A stretch of 64,000 nt of DNA from Phytohabitans suffuscus (GTDB taxonomy: Bacteria; Actinomycetota; Actinomycetes; Mycobacteriales; Micromonosporaceae). The position numbers and the translations under genes are program-made. The notes below the pieces were generated by a model. It worked only from the letters and a program-made list of their open reading frames with translations, was not told the origin of the DNA and did not search any database. The stretch is from the NCBI RefSeq assembly GCF_011764565.1, contig NZ_AP022871.1:1488001-1552000 (forward strand), written 5' to 3'. Shown here piece by piece: positions 16,258 through 22,859 of the stretch (within the stretch, counting starts at the first letter, position 1; every line of letters begins with the position of its first letter).

Positions 16258-16947
16258 ATGGCAAAGCCCGAGGAGAAGGTCACGTTCCGCCAGCGGCTGA
16301 AGCAGATCGGGATGGTTTTCTCGTTCACCGCCAAACGCGACAAGTGGTTCGCGCCGCTCGTCGCCGGAGCGGTGCTCATCCCGCTCGCGCTCACGGCGGT
16401 GGCGGTGATCACCTGGGGCTGGCTGTGGCTGCCGGTGGGCATCCTGCTCACGCTCCTCGCCGTGCTCATCGTGCTCAACCTGCGCTCCAACGCCGCGATG
16501 ATGAACGCGGCGGAGGGCCAGCCGGGCGCGGCGGCTCAGCTCGTGGAGAACATGCGCGGCGACTGGCGGGTGACCACCGCGCTGAGCTCGACCACGCAGA
16601 TGGACATGGTGCACCTCGTGCTCGGCCGCCCCGGCGTGATCCTGCTGGCCGAGGGCAACCCGCAGCGCGTGCGCGGCCTCCTCGGCCAGGAGAAGCGGCG
16701 GCTCGCGAAGGTGATCGGCAACGCACCGATGTACGACTACATCGTCGGTACGGCCGAAGACGAGCTGTCGATCCGCAAGCTGCGGACCACGCTCATGCGC
16801 CTCCCGCGCAACCTCACCGGCAAGGACGTCAACGCCCTGGACAAGCGCCTCACCGCGCTCTCCGCCCGCCCCAACCTGCCCAAGGGCGCGATCCCCAAGA
16901 ACATGCGCCCGCCGAAGGGCGCCTTCCGCCAGATGCGCGGCCGCTAG
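16258..16947 (+). CDS. DUF4191 family membrane protein
   Basis: 229 residues. After a basic N-terminus (PEEKVTFRQRLKQIGMVFSFT) come two adjacent transmembrane helices (APLVAGAVLIPLALTAVAVI and WLWLPVGILLTLLAVLIVL), then a soluble cytoplasmic domain with AEDELSIRKLRTTLMRLP and a basic tail GAIPKNMRPPKGAFRQMRGR. This is the DUF4191 arrangement; the gene usually follows lipA in actinomycetes, and here it lies 5.4 kb downstream of it. Function unknown. It converges on the racemase gene with a 4-base overlap of the ends. Confidence 0.9.
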   Translation: MAKPEEKVTFRQRLKQIGMVFSFTAKRDKWFAPLVAGAVLIPLALTAVAVITWGWLWLPVGILLTLLAVLIVLNLRSNAAMMNAAEGQPGAAAQLVENMRGDWRVTTALSSTTQMDMVHLVLGRPGVILLAEGNPQRVRGLLGQEKRRLAKVIGNAPMYDYIVGTAEDELSIRKLRTTLMRLPRNLTGKDVNALDKRLTALSARPNLPKGAIPKNMRPPKGAFRQMRGR

Positions 16948-18056
16948 GAAGCCAGCTTCAGCCACTCGGTGGCGGTGGTGTGGTCACGCAGGGCGTCCTC
17001 GTCGGGCTCGACGCCCAGGCCGGGGCCGGTGGGTACGCGCACGTGCCCGTCCTCCAGCACGAACGGCGCGGTGATGTCGCGCGCGAAGTAGCGGTCGGAG
17101 GCGGACGTGTCGCCGGGCAGCGTGAAGTTGGGCAGGGCGGCGAGCGCGACGTTGGCCGCGCGGCCCAGGCCGGTCTCCAGCATGCCGCCGCACCACACCG
17201 GTACCCCGTGCGCGGCGCAGACGTCGTGCACCCGCCGGGCCTCCAGGTAGCCACCCACCCGGCCGGGCTTGACGTTGACGATGGCCGCGGCGCCGAGCGC
17301 GACCGCGTCGGCCGCCGCACGGGCCGAGGTGATCGACTCGTCCAGGCAGACCGGGGTGCGGATCTGGCGGGCCAGGGCGGCGTGGCCGCGCACGTCGTCC
17401 TCGGGCAGCGGCTGCTCGATCAGCAGCAGGTCGAACGGGTCGAGCCTGGCCAGGTGGCGGGCGTCGGCGAGCGTGTAGGCGGTGTTGGCGTCGACCTGCA
17501 GCAGCACGCCGTCGCCGAAGCGCTCGCGCACCGCGCGGACCGGCTCGACGTCCCAGCCCGGCTCGATCTTGAGCTTGATCCGCAGGTAGCCCTGGCCGAG
17601 GTAGCGCTCGACGGCGTCCAGCAGCGCGGGGACCGTGTCCATGATGCCGACCGAGACGCCGGCCGGCACCCGCTCGCGCACCGCGCCGAGGTAGCCGCCG
17701 AACGGCAGACCCGCCGCCCTGAGCTGCGCGTCCAGCAGCGCGGTCTGCACGGCCGCCTTCGCCATCGGGTGGCCCTTGATCTCGGCGAACACCGGCTCGA
17801 CCGCGACCGGGTCGGCGCTGGGCAGCGCGGTGACGGCGGGCGCGAGGAAGCGGCGGATCACCTCGGCGGCGCCTTCCACGTACTCGCTGGAGTAGCGCGG
17901 CTCGGACATCGCCACGCACTCGCCCCACCCCTCGGCCTCGGCGGTGACCGCGCGGACCAGCAGCACGTCGCGCTCGTGCTCGGTGCCGAAGGAGGTGCGG
18001 AACGGCGCCACCAGCGGCATCGCCACCCGCCGCAGCTCGATCCCGGTGAGCTTCAC
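16944..18056 (-). CDS. Enolase-superfamily N-acylamino-acid racemase / o-succinylbenzoate synthase
   Basis: 370 residues from GTG 18056. All catalytic elements of the MLE subgroup are visible: the KxK motif in RIKLKIEPGW, metal ligands in VDANTAY, IEQPL and CLDES, and the second-face lysine in VNVKPGRVGG. This subgroup includes o-succinylbenzoate synthase (menaquinone pathway) and N-succinylamino-acid racemase. The gene overlaps the upstream GNAT gene by four bases (GTGA). Established work on Geobacillus links such a racemase with a GNAT succinyltransferase in a D- to L-amino-acid pathway, so racemase is the better guess. No other men gene is nearby. Confidence 0.85.
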   Translation of the reverse strand: MKLTGIELRRVAMPLVAPFRTSFGTEHERDVLLVRAVTAEAEGWGECVAMSEPRYSSEYVEGAAEVIRRFLAPAVTALPSADPVAVEPVFAEIKGHPMAKAAVQTALLDAQLRAAGLPFGGYLGAVRERVPAGVSVGIMDTVPALLDAVERYLGQGYLRIKLKIEPGWDVEPVRAVRERFGDGVLLQVDANTAYTLADARHLARLDPFDLLLIEQPLPEDDVRGHAALARQIRTPVCLDESITSARAAADAVALGAAAIVNVKPGRVGGYLEARRVHDVCAAHGVPVWCGGMLETGLGRAANVALAALPNFTLPGDTSASDRYFARDITAPFVLEDGHVRVPTGPGLGVEPDEDALRDHTTATEWLKLAS

Positions 18057-18883
18057 GAATCCTCCAACACGTACCAGCCGTCGCGGGTGACACCGGCGAC
18101 CCGGTAGCCGCGTTCCATCGCCGCCATGACCGCGTCGCGCAACGCGTACCGCCAGCGGCCGGCGAGCCGCGCGTCGGTGCCGCGCAGCGCCTCGACATCG
18201 GACGGGGCGGCCACCAGCAGGCGCCGGCCGCCCGCCTCGGCGACCGGCACCGGGGCGCCGCCCTCGTCGCGCCCCAGCACGACGACCCCGCCGGCCGGGT
18301 CGACCTCCTGGCACCGGCCGCGGGCCGCCGCGTTCGCGCCGGGCGAGGTGAGGTCCCAGCTCACGTACACGCGGTCGCTCGGGCCGTCGGTGTTGATGCC
18401 GTCGTCCATCGGGCCGTAGAAGTCCGGCAGGTAGGCGGTGGCCCGGGCGCCGAGCTTGCACAGGTTGAAGTACGCGTTGCGCCGGACCAGCGGGTCGTAC
18501 GTCCAGCACACCGCCGGGAGGCCCCGGTCGAGCGCCCAGACCCGCTGGTACAGCTTCATCGCGAACCCGACACCGGAGCCCTGCCGTCCCGGCTCCACGC
18601 CCGCGATGTGCGAGTGCAGGTGGTCGGTGCCGAGGAACGCGACCGCGGCGCCGAGCAGCTGGTCGCCCCGGTAGGCGCCGACGACGTAGTTGCCCGAGTG
18701 GGAGAACGCCCGCATCAGGCTCGCGTTGACCAGCTGGTCGGGTGAGGCGGCGTGCCAGACCCGCTGCAGCAGCAGGGCGGCCGCCCGCTGGTCGTCCACC
18801 TCGGACAGCTCCACGACCCGCACCCCGAGCCGGTCGGCGGCCGCTGCCGCGGCGACCCGCGCCTCGTCGACGAGCGTGCTCAT
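18053..18883 (-). CDS. GNAT family N-acyltransferase, coupled to the racemase
   Basis: 276 residues. The central part has the GNAT acyl-CoA-binding motif: HIAGVEPGRQGSGVGFAMK, with the Q/RxxGxG/A core as RQGSGVG, preceded by LLGAAVAFLGTDHLHSH. The N-terminal region (RVVELSEVDDQRAAALLLQRVW) and C-terminal extension resemble the succinyl-CoA-dependent acyltransferases that occur next to NSAR-type racemases. Its stop codon overlaps the start of the racemase gene, so both are translated together. Substrate, probably a D-amino acid or other amine, is inferred from this pairing only. Confidence 0.8.
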   Translation of the reverse strand: MSTLVDEARVAAAAAADRLGVRVVELSEVDDQRAAALLLQRVWHAASPDQLVNASLMRAFSHSGNYVVGAYRGDQLLGAAVAFLGTDHLHSHIAGVEPGRQGSGVGFAMKLYQRVWALDRGLPAVCWTYDPLVRRNAYFNLCKLGARATAYLPDFYGPMDDGINTDGPSDRVYVSWDLTSPGANAAARGRCQEVDPAGGVVVLGRDEGGAPVPVAEAGGRRLLVAAPSDVEALRGTDARLAGRWRYALRDAVMAAMERGYRVAGVTRDGWYVLEDS

Positions 18884-18931: not shown

Positions 18932-19969
18932 TCACCGGTCCCGGCGGGTGACCAGACCGGCCAGACCGGTCAGCTCGGCGGCGGGCGCGGCGACCGGATG
19001 GGCCGCCCGGAGGTGGTGCAGCGCCTGGCCGAGCAGGTCGTCCGCCTGCGCCTGGCTCCAGTCCCGCGCGCCGGCCGCGGCGACCAGCTCGGCCGCACGC
19101 ACCAGGTCGGCGCCGGACGGCGGCGCTCCACTGTAGAGCGCGGCCAGCTCACGCCCGGCCGGCGTACCCGAGGTCAGAGCCGCCACCACGGGCAGCGACT
19201 TCTTGCGCTGCCGCAGGTCGGCGTGGACCGGCTTGCCGGTCACCGACGGGTCGCCCCAGATCCCGAGGAGGTCGTCGACGAACTGGAACGCCAGCCCCAG
19301 CCGCTCGCCGAACTCCCGGAACCGGCCGACCCGGTCCCAGCTCGCCCCGCCGAACGCGGCGCCGAGCGCGCACGCGCAGCCGAGCAGCGCGCCGGTCTTG
19401 CCCTGGGCCATGCCCAGGCACTCGCGCAGCTCGACCTCGGCGCGGGACTCGAACGCCAGGTCGGCGCTCTGCCCGTCGAGCAGCTCCTGCACGGCGGCGT
19501 GCATCAGCCGGCCCTCTTCCCGCGAGGCGGGGTGGCCGCTGCCGGCCAGCACGTCGAACGCGAGCGCGAGCAGCGCGTCGCCGGCCAGGATCGCCGGGCC
19601 GACCCCGTACACGGTCCAGGCCGTGTCCCGGTGCCGGCGGGTGCGGTCGCCGTCCATCACGTCGTCGTGCAGCAGGGAGAAGTTGTGTACCAGCTCGACC
19701 GCGACCGCCGCGGGCAGCGCGGTGACCGGGTCGCCGCCCACGGCCTCGGCGCTGAGCAGCACCAGCGCCGGGCGGATCGCCTTGCCGCCGGGCGCGCCGA
19801 CCGCCCGCCCGTCCCGGTCCCACCAGCCGAGGTGGTAGCCGGCGATCTGGCGCAGGGCGCCCGGCAGCGTGTCCACCGCCGCGCGCAGGGCCGGGTCGAC
19901 GCAGGCACGGCTCCAGGCCAGCACCTCCGCGGCGGACCGCCCACCGACCGTCTCGGACACGGCCGTCAC
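18932..19969 (-). CDS. Polyprenyl diphosphate synthase associated with encapsulin shells
   Basis: 345 residues from GTG 19969, overlapping the preceding shell gene by four bases. A trans-isoprenyl diphosphate synthase: [18 protein letters not shown], first aspartate-rich motif [10 protein letters not shown] (DDxxD), and the second motif region [13 protein letters not shown], here DDLLG rather than DDxxD. Product chain length cannot be deduced safely. Family 2B encapsulins are known to occur with polyprenyl transferases and terpene cyclases as cargo. Unlike cargo proteins with a long disordered targeting domain, this one has only about 50 residues before the GGKAIRP motif, with no clear disordered extension. 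Confidence 0.9.
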
Positions 19970-21363
19970 CGTCCGCCCCCGCCCTGGACCTCGACGTTCT
20001 CGAGGATGCCCAGCGCGTCCGGCACCAGCACCGCGGCGGAGTAGTAGGCGCTGACCAGGTACGAGCGGATCGCCTTGCCGTCGATCCCCATGAAGCGGAC
20101 GGACACGCCGGGCTCGTACTCGTCGGGCAGCCCGGTCTCGCGCAGGCCGATCACGCCGCTCTCGTCCTTGCCGGTGCGCATCGCCATGATCGAGGTGGTA
20201 CCGCCCGGCCCGATCGGGATCTTGTCGCACGGCAGGACCGGTACGCCGCGCCACCCCATCACCTGGCGACCACGCACCTCCACCGGCGCCGGGTAGACGC
20301 CCCGCCGGCTGCACTCGCGGCCGAACGCGGCGATCGCGCGCGGATGGGCGAGGAAGAACCGGGTACCGCGCCGGCGGCAGAGCAGGTCGTCCAGGTCGTC
20401 GGGTGTGGGTGGGCCGCTACGGGTGTGTATCCGCTGCTTCAGGTCCGCGTTGTGCAACAACCCGAACTCACGGTTGTTCACCAACTCGTTCTCCTGCCGC
20501 TCCCGCAACGCCTCCACCGTCAACCGCAACTGCTGCTCCACCTGATCCATCGGCTGGTTGTACAGATCCGCCACCCGCGAATGCACCCGCAACACCGTCT
20601 GCGCCACCGAAAGCTCGTACTCCCGAGGCGACAGCTCGTAGTCCACGAAGGCGCCCGGCAGCCGGTGCTCGCCCGCGTGGCCGGCCGACATCGCGATCGC
20701 CGCCTCGCCCTGCCGGTTGCTGCGGCGCTGGCGCGGGCGGGACAGGACGCCGCGCACGTGCGCGGTGACCTCCCGCAGCTCCACGATGGAGCGCCGGGGC
20801 AGGGCGAGCAGGATGCACGGCGTGATCGCCTTCACGCCGAACTCCCACGCCCGCTCGCCGCCGTCCAGCACCTGCTCGCCGAAGTGGTCGCCGCCGGCGA
20901 GCGTGCCGAGCACCGCCGGGTCGCCGTACCGGCCGGTGCCGAGCCGGCTCAGCTTGCCGTGCGCCACGAGGTAGACGTGCTCGGCCGGCTGCCCGGCGGT
21001 CACGACGACCTCGCCGGGGGCGTACTCGCGCTGCTCGAAGCGGTCGGCCAGCGCGGCCAGCACACCGTCGTCGGTCAGCCCGCGCAGCAGCGCCAGCTCG
21101 CGCAGCTCCCGCGGCACCACCCGCACCCGGGCGCCGGTGCTGGTGAAGCTCACCCGCCCGTCGCCGACGGTCAGGGTCAGCCGGCGGTTGACCCGGTACG
21201 CGCCACCCGGCGCCTCCTCCCACGGCAGCATGCGCAGCAGCCACCGCGGCGAGATTCCCCGCATCTGCGGTACGGACTTGGTCGTCGTCGCGAGGTTTCG
21301 CGCCGCCGTCGTGCTCAGGCTCTGGTTCGGTCGAACGTCCGAAGTGGACTCGGTCAGGGTCAC
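19966..21363 (-). CDS. Family 2B encapsulin shell protein with cNMP-binding-like domain (copy 1)
   Basis: About 465 residues. The N-terminal arm [20 protein letters not shown] is followed by a Crp/Fnr-like cyclic-nucleotide-binding fold (roughly residues 95-215: [20 protein letters not shown], then GDHFGEQ), then an HK97-type shell domain ([14 protein letters not shown] to [19 protein letters not shown]). This is the plan of EshA-like family 2B encapsulins. In the phosphate-binding cassette the usual Arg of RAATVKA is replaced by Trp (WEFGVKA). GTG 21363 is chosen by analogy with copy 2; GTG 21366 is equally possible. Codons for residues 239-328 (20380-20649) are identical in DNA to copy 2, although the rest has diverged. 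Confidence 0.93.
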
Positions 21364-21455
21364 CACACACCACCATTCACGCGAGGGACGGTCCGTCGTC
21401 CCGGTCCGGCCGCGCGCGCCGGGCGGCTGCGCGGCCGGACCGGGGGCTGCGGGGG

Positions 21456-22859
21456 TTACCCCTCCCTGCCGATCTCGACGTTCTCCAGGATCCCGAGCGC
21501 GTCCGGCACCAGGACGGCCGCCGAGTAGTAGGCGCTGACCAGGTACGAGATGATCGCCTGGTCACTGATGCCCATGAAGCGCACGGACAGCCCCGGCTGG
21601 TACTCGTCCGGCAGCCCGGTCTGGTGCAGGCCGATCACACCCTGCCGCTCCTCGCCGGTGCGCAGCAGCATGATGGACGTCGTCCGGGTGTCGCTGATCG
21701 GGATCTTGTTGCACGGCAGCAGCGGGATGCCCCGCCAGGCCGGCACCTGGTGGCCGGCGAGGTCGACGCTCTGCGGGTAGATGCCGCGCCGGTTGCACTC
21801 CTGGCCGAACGCGGCGATCGCCCGCGGGTGGGCCAGCATGACGGTCGGGTCCTTCCAGACCGTGGTGAGCAGGTCGTCCAGGTCGTCGGGTGTGGGTGGG
21901 CCGCTACGGGTGTGTATCCGCTGCTTCAGGTCCGCGTTGTGCAACAACCCGAACTCACGGTTGTTCACCAACTCGTTCTCCTGCCGCTCCCGCAACGCCT
22001 CCACCGTCAACCGCAACTGCTGCTCCACCTGATCCATCGGCTGGTTGTACAGATCCGCCACCCGCGAATGCACCCGCAACACCGTCTGCGCCACCGAAAG
22101 CTCGTACTCCCGAGGCGACAGCTCGTAGTCCACGAACGTGCCGGGGAGCAGGGGCTCGCCGCTGTGGCCGGAGGAGACCTCGATCTCCGCCTCCCCGTGG
22201 CGGTTCTGCGGCTGGCCGGAGCTCGCCCGCAGCGCGTCGATGTGCGCGCGCAGCTGCCCGGACTGCTCGGCGAGGCGGTCGACGTCGGTACGGGGCAGGG
22301 AGAGCACGGTGCAGGGCGTGACCGCCTTGACGGTGTACTCCCAGATGCCGGCCGGGTCCACGATGGACTGCTCGCCGAAGTAGTCGCCGTCGGCCAGCGA
22401 GCCGAGCACCGTCTGGTCGCCGTACTGCCCGGTGCCTGTCTTGCACACCTTGCCGTGCGCGATCAGGTACACCTGGTCGGCCTGGTGTCCGAACTCGACG
22501 ATCACGTCGCCGGGCGCGTACTCGCGCTGGTCGAAGCGTTCGGAGAGCGCGACGAGCAGCTCGTCGTCCTCGACGCCGCGCAGCGGGGGCAGCTCCCGCA
22601 GCTCCTGCGGCACCACGCGCACCTGCGCGCCGGTGCTGGTAAACGTCACCCGCCCGTCGCCGATCGCGTACGACATCCGGCGGTTGACCCGGTACACGCC
22701 ACCGGCGGCCTGCACCCAGGGCAGGACGCGGAGCAACCAGCGCGACGAGATGCCCTGCATCTGCGGCACCGACTTGGTCGTCGTCGCGAGATTTCGCGCC
22801 GCCGCGGTGCTCAGGCTCTGGTTTGGTCGAGCGTCCTCGATGGGTTCGGTCACGGTCAC
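21456..22859 (-). CDS. Family 2B encapsulin shell protein with cNMP-binding-like domain (copy 2)
   Basis: 467 residues from GTG 22859. Same domain order as copy 1: arm [20 protein letters not shown], cyclic-nucleotide-binding-like domain ([20 protein letters not shown], then GDYFGEQ) and HK97 shell domain ending [20 protein letters not shown]. The cassette Arg is again a Trp (WEYTVKA). It is the first gene of the operon shell 2, shell 1, polyprenyl synthase. The gap to shell 1 is 92 bases. Two different shell subunits in one operon suggest a mixed, two-component capsid. A divergent promoter region of about 190 bases separates it from the gene at 23047. Confidence 0.93.

Follow-up and report, generated by a model that had tools for sequence, protein, structure and literature searches.

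Gene conversion between paired encapsulin shell genes of actinobacteria and its accompanying strand skew

Two adjacent shell genes on the reverse strand of the Phytohabitans suffuscus chromosome raise the question of how genes that differ along most of their length came to share a stretch without a single difference, written in codons that are rare in the rest of both genes. The window analyzed here is the whole 64,000-nt stretch from position 1,488,001 to 1,552,000 of contig NZ_AP022871.1, and positions below are counted from its first letter. Both encoded proteins match the SrpI-like encapsulin family (PF19307) and carry a cNMP-binding-like insertion (PF00027), and the genes are adjacent open reading frames (ORFs), as in the Family 2B arrangement of two HK97-type shell genes within 10 kb, each with such an insertion. 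Diagnostic motif 1, which distinguishes TVWK from RRRK copies in this family, reads TTVWK in the first protein (Enc1) and CRRRG in the second (Enc2). The features concerned, all on the reverse strand, are as follows, with the motifs, gene order and operon types taken from passages of PMC12407261.

21456..22868, reverse strand: Enc1 shell gene, motif 1 of the TVWK type (ORF; Pfam PF19307 and PF00027; structural relatives 9bje, 9bix and 9bhu; the upstream gene carries TVWK in PMC12407261)
19966..21366, reverse strand: Enc2 shell gene, 466 amino acids, motif 1 of the RRR type (ORF; Pfam PF19307 and PF00027)
21867..22136, reverse strand: conversion tract, Enc1 copy, codons 245–334, with G+T-skewed synonymous sites (identity to 20380–20649; skew)
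20380..20649, reverse strand: conversion tract, Enc2 copy (identity to 21867–22136)
21852..21863, reverse strand: diagnostic motif 1 of Enc1 (TVWK), just beyond the 3′-end of the tract, conversion limit (motif per PMC12407261; quartet map)
20368..20376, reverse strand: diagnostic motif 1 of Enc2 (RRR; motif per PMC12407261)
22263..22526, reverse strand: cNMP-binding-like insertion domain of Enc1, residues 115–202, where the paralogues have diverged (Pfam PF00027; identity by region)
20776..21030, reverse strand: cNMP-binding-like insertion domain of Enc2, residues 113–197 (Pfam PF00027)
18932..20314, reverse strand: polyprenyl synthetase ORF, downstream of Enc2 (Pfam PF00348 at residues 175–404; operon types in PMC12407261)

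The polyprenyl synthetase is the probable cargo of a prenyltransferase-type operon, a type of encapsulin operon described in PMC12407261, and the true start of its ORF probably lies near the Enc2 stop. The closest solved chains (9bje, 9bix and 9bhu) share the Enc layout over nearly the full length, with a TVWK motif in one and RRR-type motifs in two; their depositors named them Crp/Fnr regulator or nucleotide-binding protein. AlphaFold prediction for 16 sequences gave a mean pLDDT of 56.3, too low for structural conclusions. In the Family 2B layout, the cNMP-binding-like insertion comes after an N-terminal portion of the HK97 fold (PMC12407261). The tract occupies Enc1 residues 245–334, beyond the insertion and within the SrpI-like Pfam match (residues 216–468), and ends at diagnostic motif 1; the placement of the tract at the start of the HK97 shell domain, as proposed in an earlier note on this DNA, is wrong.

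Positions 20380–20649 and 21867–22136 are identical base for base over exactly 270 nt and differ at the first base beyond either end, and outside the tract Enc1 and Enc2 are 66–82% identical by region; the identical tract and the strongly differing flanks reported in the earlier note are both confirmed. A search with the tract as query against the single-contig genome of 10,148,719 bp (E up to 0.001) matched these two places only. The deviant codons that had been pointed out in the tract (TTG seven times, GAT, CAT and CGT) likewise stood out when the tract was compared with the rest of the two genes: TTG encodes 7/14 leucines in the tract versus 1/69 in the rest, and 4/322 in six other window genes, while the corresponding shares are 2/8 versus 0/33 for GAT, 1/3 versus 1/15 for CAT, and 2/9 versus 2/72 for CGT. 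A permutation test on synonymous identity, in which protein conservation was controlled for, gave p = 0.0005, the floor of 2000 shuffles.

Comparison within and between genomes strongly supports gene conversion between the Enc1 and Enc2 paralogues as the source of this identity, and points to its recurrence. Of the 16 pair-bearing genomes compared first, four (G000, G002, G001 and G059) have a near-identical tract (96–100% by region) while most of their other regions are not near-identical, and the ends of the longest identical run vary from genome to genome (codons 245–334, 245–326, 232–331 and 223–335). In each of the four, both copies carry the genome's own version of the tract: identity is 99–100% within G000 and within G002 versus 96% between these two sister species, 88–89% between either of them and G001, and 83–84% in comparison with G059. 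The flanks of G000 and G002 follow the paralogue, with identities of 93% between the Enc1s, 91% between the Enc2s and 75–76% between Enc1 and Enc2. The suggestion in the earlier note of conversion between paralogues therefore holds, with recurrence added, and the congeners G001 and G002 do not show one level of identity along the whole genes, near-identity being confined to the tract except for a second stretch in G001 at codons 412–469, near the C-terminus. Maximum-likelihood trees of 21 genomes gave the same picture, the flanks uniting the Enc1s of G000 and G002 and, separately, their Enc2s (support 100/100 each), whereas the tract paired the two G000 copies together and the two G002 copies together and placed the G000, G002 and G001 tracts in one clade. 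The same discordance between tract and flank trees was seen in G059/L162, L142/L144 and L083/L113, with weak support (58/15) at the flank node uniting the L142 and L144 Enc1s.

The comparison was extended to 160 distinct pairs, 31 of them converted; because the pairs were gathered by similarity to the window Enc1, and 60 later regions were hand-picked across genera among the matches listed, 31/160 is not a prevalence. From 80 named loci, nine were dropped as repeats of genomes already included and seven because a second gene longer than 900 nt was absent; five of 20 regions were without an intact pair (including L048, in which the first gene is broken), six of the 60 later regions had no same-strand, full-length pair, and the duplicates L132, L191, L212, L216 and L197 were removed. 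Nine records from a plasmid collection were left out. The analyses based on 111 rows (neighbor count, quartets, excess identity, third-position counts and early contrasts) include L132, a duplicate of L084, neither of which is among the 56 clean quartets described below.

The own paralogue was the mutual nearest sequence in 24 of 111 pairs for the tract, compared with six for the 5′-flank and five for the 3′-flank. When nearest neighbors were combined into 75 quartets, both flanks grouped by paralogue in 56; in these clean quartets the tract followed the genome in 12 and the paralogue in 40, with four unresolved and no crosswise grouping, and in the remaining 19 of the 75 the tract grouped by genome. 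Conversion thus depends on the lineage, since after the species split 40 of the 56 clean quartets show none. When these 56 quartets were mapped with a 30-codon sliding window, genome grouping was located mainly at codons 217–336; elsewhere it was limited to one or a few cases close to either terminus, within the insertion domain and at 347–376. All 56 quartets grouped by paralogue in each of the three windows from 317–346 to 337–366. Even without the 23 pairs that have a significant run, a slight within-genome excess identity was left, with a mean of 0.034 in the tract versus 0.009 outside it (p = 0.0017). Copies are thus closer within than between genomes and flanks group by paralogy, the pattern of concerted evolution, and these sequence comparisons demonstrate that a segment of approximately codons 217–336 evolves in concert in a number of actinobacterial lineages, with the flanks following the paralogue.

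Where conversion stops is related to diagnostic motif 1. This motif is represented by one VW copy and one R/K copy in 158/160 pairs, and the split is retained in 30 of the 31 converted pairs, that is, those with a tract synonymous identity of at least 0.95. The run of synonymous identity ends at codons 323–335, just before or at motif 1, in 19 of the 31 and elsewhere in ten; for L151 and L157 the recorded ends are 346 and 348, since codons with an amino-acid difference are passed over by this measure. L194 has an identical run of 998 nt, and all 34 of its 34 amino-acid differences fall at codon 332 or beyond, as do 34/36 in L195 and 35/36 in L193; the case of L194 suggests that the A-domain side can be enough to set Enc1 and Enc2 apart, with no differences in the N-arm or the insertion domain. 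The exception to the motif 1 rule is L192, in which the two genes are identical over their whole length of 1407 nt, starting from base 4 of the contig, and which may be an assembly artefact. The halt of conversion near motif 1 means that Enc1 and Enc2 stay different there, and we infer that selection keeps them distinct at this site. It is plausible that the tract, as the earlier note proposed, keeps a shared subunit interface identical, contact between Enc1 and Enc2 being possible at every interface of the S. lydicus shells (PMC12407261); however, the constraint visible in the sequences is the opposite one, with conversion halting where Enc1 and Enc2 differ. Encapsulin trees built from whole shell genes thus combine two histories in converting lineages.

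The odd codons of the tract are a strand skew, either toward G+T or mirrored toward C+A. At codons 245–315 of the window tract, third positions of both copies have a T:A ratio of 12:0 and an excess of G over C of +0.59, compared with −0.05 in the flanks. Skew of this kind was found in 28/31 converted pairs versus 6/129 others (Fisher 3.8e-22), where a skewed pair is one with |z| > 3 robust s.d. in third-position keto skew, and where both this cut-off and that of 0.95 for conversion were fixed after viewing the data. By window, 176/240 were skewed at a synonymous identity of at least 0.97 versus 42/2784 below 0.9; over all windows of the first 80 pairs the rank correlation between skew and synonymous identity was nil, the link being confined to near-identical windows. 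Because the 160 pairs are related by descent and are not independent, phylogenetic contrasts were calculated alongside the pair counts: of nine independent contrasts, an average of 5.7 agreed in direction, 3.2 showed no difference and none ran the opposite way (median p = 0.031, range 0.031–0.219; median 0.125 on the first 111 rows). The converted pairs without tract skew are L144, L145 and L196; in L145 the skew lies in converted codons 18–157 (T3:A3 44:0), and its near-identical tract is unskewed. Six skewed pairs fall under the conversion cut-off, of which two (L054 and L076) are clearly unconverted.

The signs of the GC and TA components agree in all 34 skewed pairs (28 positive and six negative), an agreement that is favored by the index, because it sums the two. 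In converted tracts of positive sign, four-fold sites are 0.75 G and 0.08 T, compared with 0.40 G and 0.01 T in unconverted ones, and in the mirror-image genus of L192–L195 four-fold sites are 1.00 C and NNR codons 0.97 A. In L117 (titled as a Nostoc MAG), the converted part is shifted in GC but only slightly in TA (n = 1). Selection on translation rate for TTG was rejected as a cause, since lineages of the opposite sign use CTC for 0.97 of leucines, and cytosine deamination as the sole cause is disfavored, since G prevails over T at four-fold sites.

In the cases tested, the sign of the skew follows the direction of replication: the G+T-rich strand is the leading strand in 15/15 testable repeats, with the origin taken at dnaA and the terminus at the midpoint, and with the repeats not all independent, several being in one genome and two in one genus. 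Encapsulin genes co-directional with the fork have positive skew (4/4: G000, G549, G837 and G1041, the last on the assumption of a circular chromosome), and those oriented head-on have negative skew (2/2, G968 and G963, of one genus). In none of 23 further genomes outside this set does dnaA share a contig with the encapsulin genes, so that the rule rests on no case from these. The remaining repeats come from polyketide clusters of five genomes; G968, which had a single match, was left out. Of 19 cluster segments, picked from ketosynthase matches and covering part of the places listed, 11 contain repeats with an identity of 85% or more. For T3/A3, co-directional polyketide repeats are positive in 7/7 cases, with mixed reading frames and with a frame filter alike, and head-on repeats negative in 2/2, these two being G000_A2 (102 codons at an identity of at least 90%) and G844_c (1452 codons). 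For G3/C3, the co-directional repeats are positive in 7/7 cases in the most identical class present, with reading frames mixed; with a frame filter, which itself tends to drop T-rich parts, the value lies above that of single-copy codons in 6/7 and the shift in G000_D1 vanishes. Non-repeated codons of the same clusters have much less skew. Two clusters of G844 lie approximately 100 kb apart in opposite orientation and have opposite coding skews (G844_b versus G844_c), so that the same chromosomal strand is G+T-rich in both. Two negative repeats, G549_c and G919_a, were left out of the 15, being head-on only if the chromosomes are circular. A perfect split of 11 and four would arise by chance in 1 of 1365 cases by a hand count that ignores dependence within genomes, or in 1 of 364 with the two same-genus genomes counted once. 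This rule points to replication-linked recombination; it was not found stated in the literature searched, and the authors of the primary paper on the skewed repeats known as GRINS, discussed below, may have examined strand orientation.

Taken as a whole, the locus is very probably explained by recurrent conversion bounded by motif 1, with the skew as a proposed by-product of biased conversion linked to replication. Conversion would start where the paralogues are most alike, in the most conserved protein segment with the longest homology, and earlier events would keep that homology high; selection would remove recombinants crossing motif 1, as these would lose what distinguishes Enc1 from Enc2. 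A skew produced by biased conversion at replication forks would account for the odd codons without foreign DNA.

Three other accounts of the identity carry little weight beside this one. Constraint on protein and codons might by itself make the two genes alike without recombination, and the tract does rank with the best-conserved portions of the shell protein (16 pairs), and unconverted pairs also tend to be more alike in the tract than elsewhere. Yet in G000, G002, G001 and G059 the tract is identical or nearly so within each genome, synonymous sites included, and 4–17% different between genomes, both copies share each genome's version, and tract trees group by genome; the mirror-image codon choice of other lineages excludes one common codon optimum. 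Purifying selection alone is hardly credible and, judged by synonymous divergence between genomes that is common to both copies, already refuted. That the tract was acquired from a foreign or third source and then copied into both genes, the other possibility raised in the earlier note, is highly improbable: codon use does set the tract apart from the remainder of both genes and of the window, but two copies and no third were found in the genome, the same skew recurs in the diverged tracts of a sister species and of a more distant congener, the G000, G002 and G001 tracts form one clade, and skew of both signs, including the mirror image, accompanies conversion in separate lineages, with a sign that follows replication where testable. 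An assembly artefact, in which a short repeat was collapsed and one consensus written for both copies, is similarly improbable; L192 may be such a case, but the window genome (10.1 Mb) and that of G549 are each a single contig, each genome has its own version of the tract, and collapse would create neither a skew nor a stop at motif 1 across many assemblies.

The origin of the skew itself can be read in two ways, each tentative. One is ordinary strand-biased mutation in a fragile stretch, through cytosine deamination in single-stranded DNA or through transcription and R-loops, with conversion following or being unrelated; this is possible but doubtful. G-rich non-template strands can favor R-loops. 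Bacterial leading strands are commonly rich in G and, less so, in T, with the same sign as here (PMC3174206, in part). Against it, the four-fold composition of converted positive tracts is unlike that expected from C deamination alone, the sign, taken relative to transcription, reverses when the direction of replication does (G844_b versus G844_c), and the non-repeated codons of the same clusters share little of the skew.

The other reading, put forward as a speculative possibility, is that the skew was left behind by mismatches that escaped repair by NucS during fork-linked conversion. Nearly all actinobacteria are without MutS-MutL and use NucS instead, which cuts G-T, G-G and T-T mismatches, leaves C-C and A-A uncut, and acts on A-C weakly or not at all (PMC11551767, PMC8228993). 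The window genome has a NucS match (PF01939), and no match to the MutS_V profile of MutS was found in it. A single strand of one paralogue would pair with the lagging-strand template of its partner; the C and A that it brings in would escape NucS, and the G and T would be corrected to the resident base, as occurs for G-G in oligonucleotide recombineering of M. smegmatis (PMC11551767). G+T would then accumulate on the leading-sense strand and C+A on the lagging-sense one, so that the GC and TA skews would have the same sign. NucS would also restrain recombination between diverged copies, its loss raising recombination 10-fold at 90% identity in M. smegmatis (PMC8228993). A paper on archaeal skew, in the part consulted, regards NucS as a priori unable to act strand-specifically (PMC12999951); the present proposal differs because a recombination heteroduplex consists of one donor and one resident strand. 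The sign observed in the 15 testable repeats is the one expected under escape from NucS, and, if this reading is true, GRINS would be products of biased conversion and not its drivers.

Concerted evolution by conversion is known in bacteria from rRNA operons and tufA/tufB, whose copies are homogenized within genomes and diverge between species. The encapsulin pairs resemble these in that copies are homogenized within genomes while species diverge, but differ in that one segment only is involved, with its limit at a position of difference between the paralogues, and in that a replication-oriented skew goes with it. The literature searched contained no report of conversion or concerted evolution for encapsulin genes; the single gene-conversion match was a giant-virus paper. 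The two-component Family 2B encapsulin of Streptomyces lydicus, described in a 2025 study in which these motifs serve to tell its two shell components apart, shares the tandem Enc1/Enc2 genes, the cNMP-binding-like insertion and the TVWK versus RRRK motif 1, and the Enc1s cluster with Enc1s in that paper, whereas here the middle of the shell domain departs from that history in converting lineages; a word search of its main text found none of the terms gene conversion, paralog and duplication (PMC12407261). The peptide-synthetase genes wolG1/wolG2 are likewise duplicated actinobacterial genes with a common nucleotide skew pattern for which homogenizing conversion is discussed, but there, in the passages available, the skew is taken as a sign of recent divergence or duplication and no replication-strand rule is given (PMC9205934).

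The closest parallel is provided by GRINS, which among the matches listed were reported from polyketide synthases only. The abstract of the primary GRINS paper of 2021 reportedly calls their mechanism unknown. GRINS are described as near-identical intragenomic coding repeats with GC and TA skew on one strand, linked to conversion and commonest in actinobacteria (PMC10394414, PMC9899208). The encapsulin tracts share the near-identity, the one-strand GC and TA skew and the link to conversion; the difference is that GRINS lie in polyketide synthase modules and the present tract in two separate shell genes. Measured against the published values as excerpted, the identity of the window tract (100% over 270 bp) exceeds the >80% of PMC9899208 and the often >90% of PMC10394414, while its length of 270 bp is below the minimum of at least 500 bp (PMC9899208) or approximately 1 kb (PMC10394414). 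Its GC skew is +0.16 over the whole tract and +0.31 at codons 245–315, so that >0.15 (PMC9899208) is reached by both and >0.25 (PMC10394414) by the latter only, and its raw TA skew of −0.04 over the tract is short of either value (>0.15, PMC9899208; >0.25, PMC10394414), its skew being visible at synonymous sites. Encapsulin pairs offer a far simpler system for GRINS-like skew, with two genes, one bounded tract, many related genomes and both signs, and a copied lopsided stretch of this kind gives a handle on the origin of skewed repeats. Four other pairs, L171 and L193–L195, exceed the GRINS thresholds of PMC9899208, with repeats of 609–975 bp, GC skews of +0.43 or about −0.5 and TA skews of +0.26 or about −0.45.

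In two encapsulin pairs, L194 (genome G968) and L195 (genome G963), the Enc1 and Enc2 shell genes were found to be near-identical through codon 331, with no amino-acid difference between the paralogues up to that codon in L194 and two in L195, while their A-domain motifs are still distinct in both genomes. Third positions within the tract of these two loci are occupied almost exclusively by C or A. The two pairs thus constitute a natural experiment on what sets Enc1 apart from Enc2.

A further locus, L192, begins at base 4 of contig 112 in genome G961; both of its shell genes are complete, lie at the contig edge and are identical over 1407 nt, representing either a recent duplication or an assembly artefact. 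Their diagnostic motif 1 has the unusual sequence GNIYK. On the chromosome of Amycolatopsis sp. 2-2, which also carries a further Enc1-like locus (L103), the Enc1 gene of L076 shows a strong C/A skew both within the tract and before it, although it does not resemble its own Enc2. The skew may have been left by an exchange with some other copy.

A search for ketosynthases in the Phytohabitans suffuscus genome gave 58 matches at E values up to 1e-60. Among the polyketide clusters of this genome (loci L224–L240), near-identical skewed repeats are present in four segments, the skew being positive in three and negative in one.

Beyond the polyprenyl synthetase gene of the window, an ORF and Pfam search yielded the following:

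16947-18883, minus strand, an ORF and a gene downstream of the prenyl synthetase
within 16947-18883, minus strand, the gene, a member of the mandelate racemase/muconate lactonizing enzyme family

The ORF at 18053-18883 (minus strand) returned no match in the Pfam search.

Five weak DnaA-like ATPase matches of equal score and the same length are located on contig C1 of this genome (297599, 1127211, 2504036, 4256333 and 7102455); we presume, as a guess, that they may be copies of the IstB-like helper gene of an insertion sequence.
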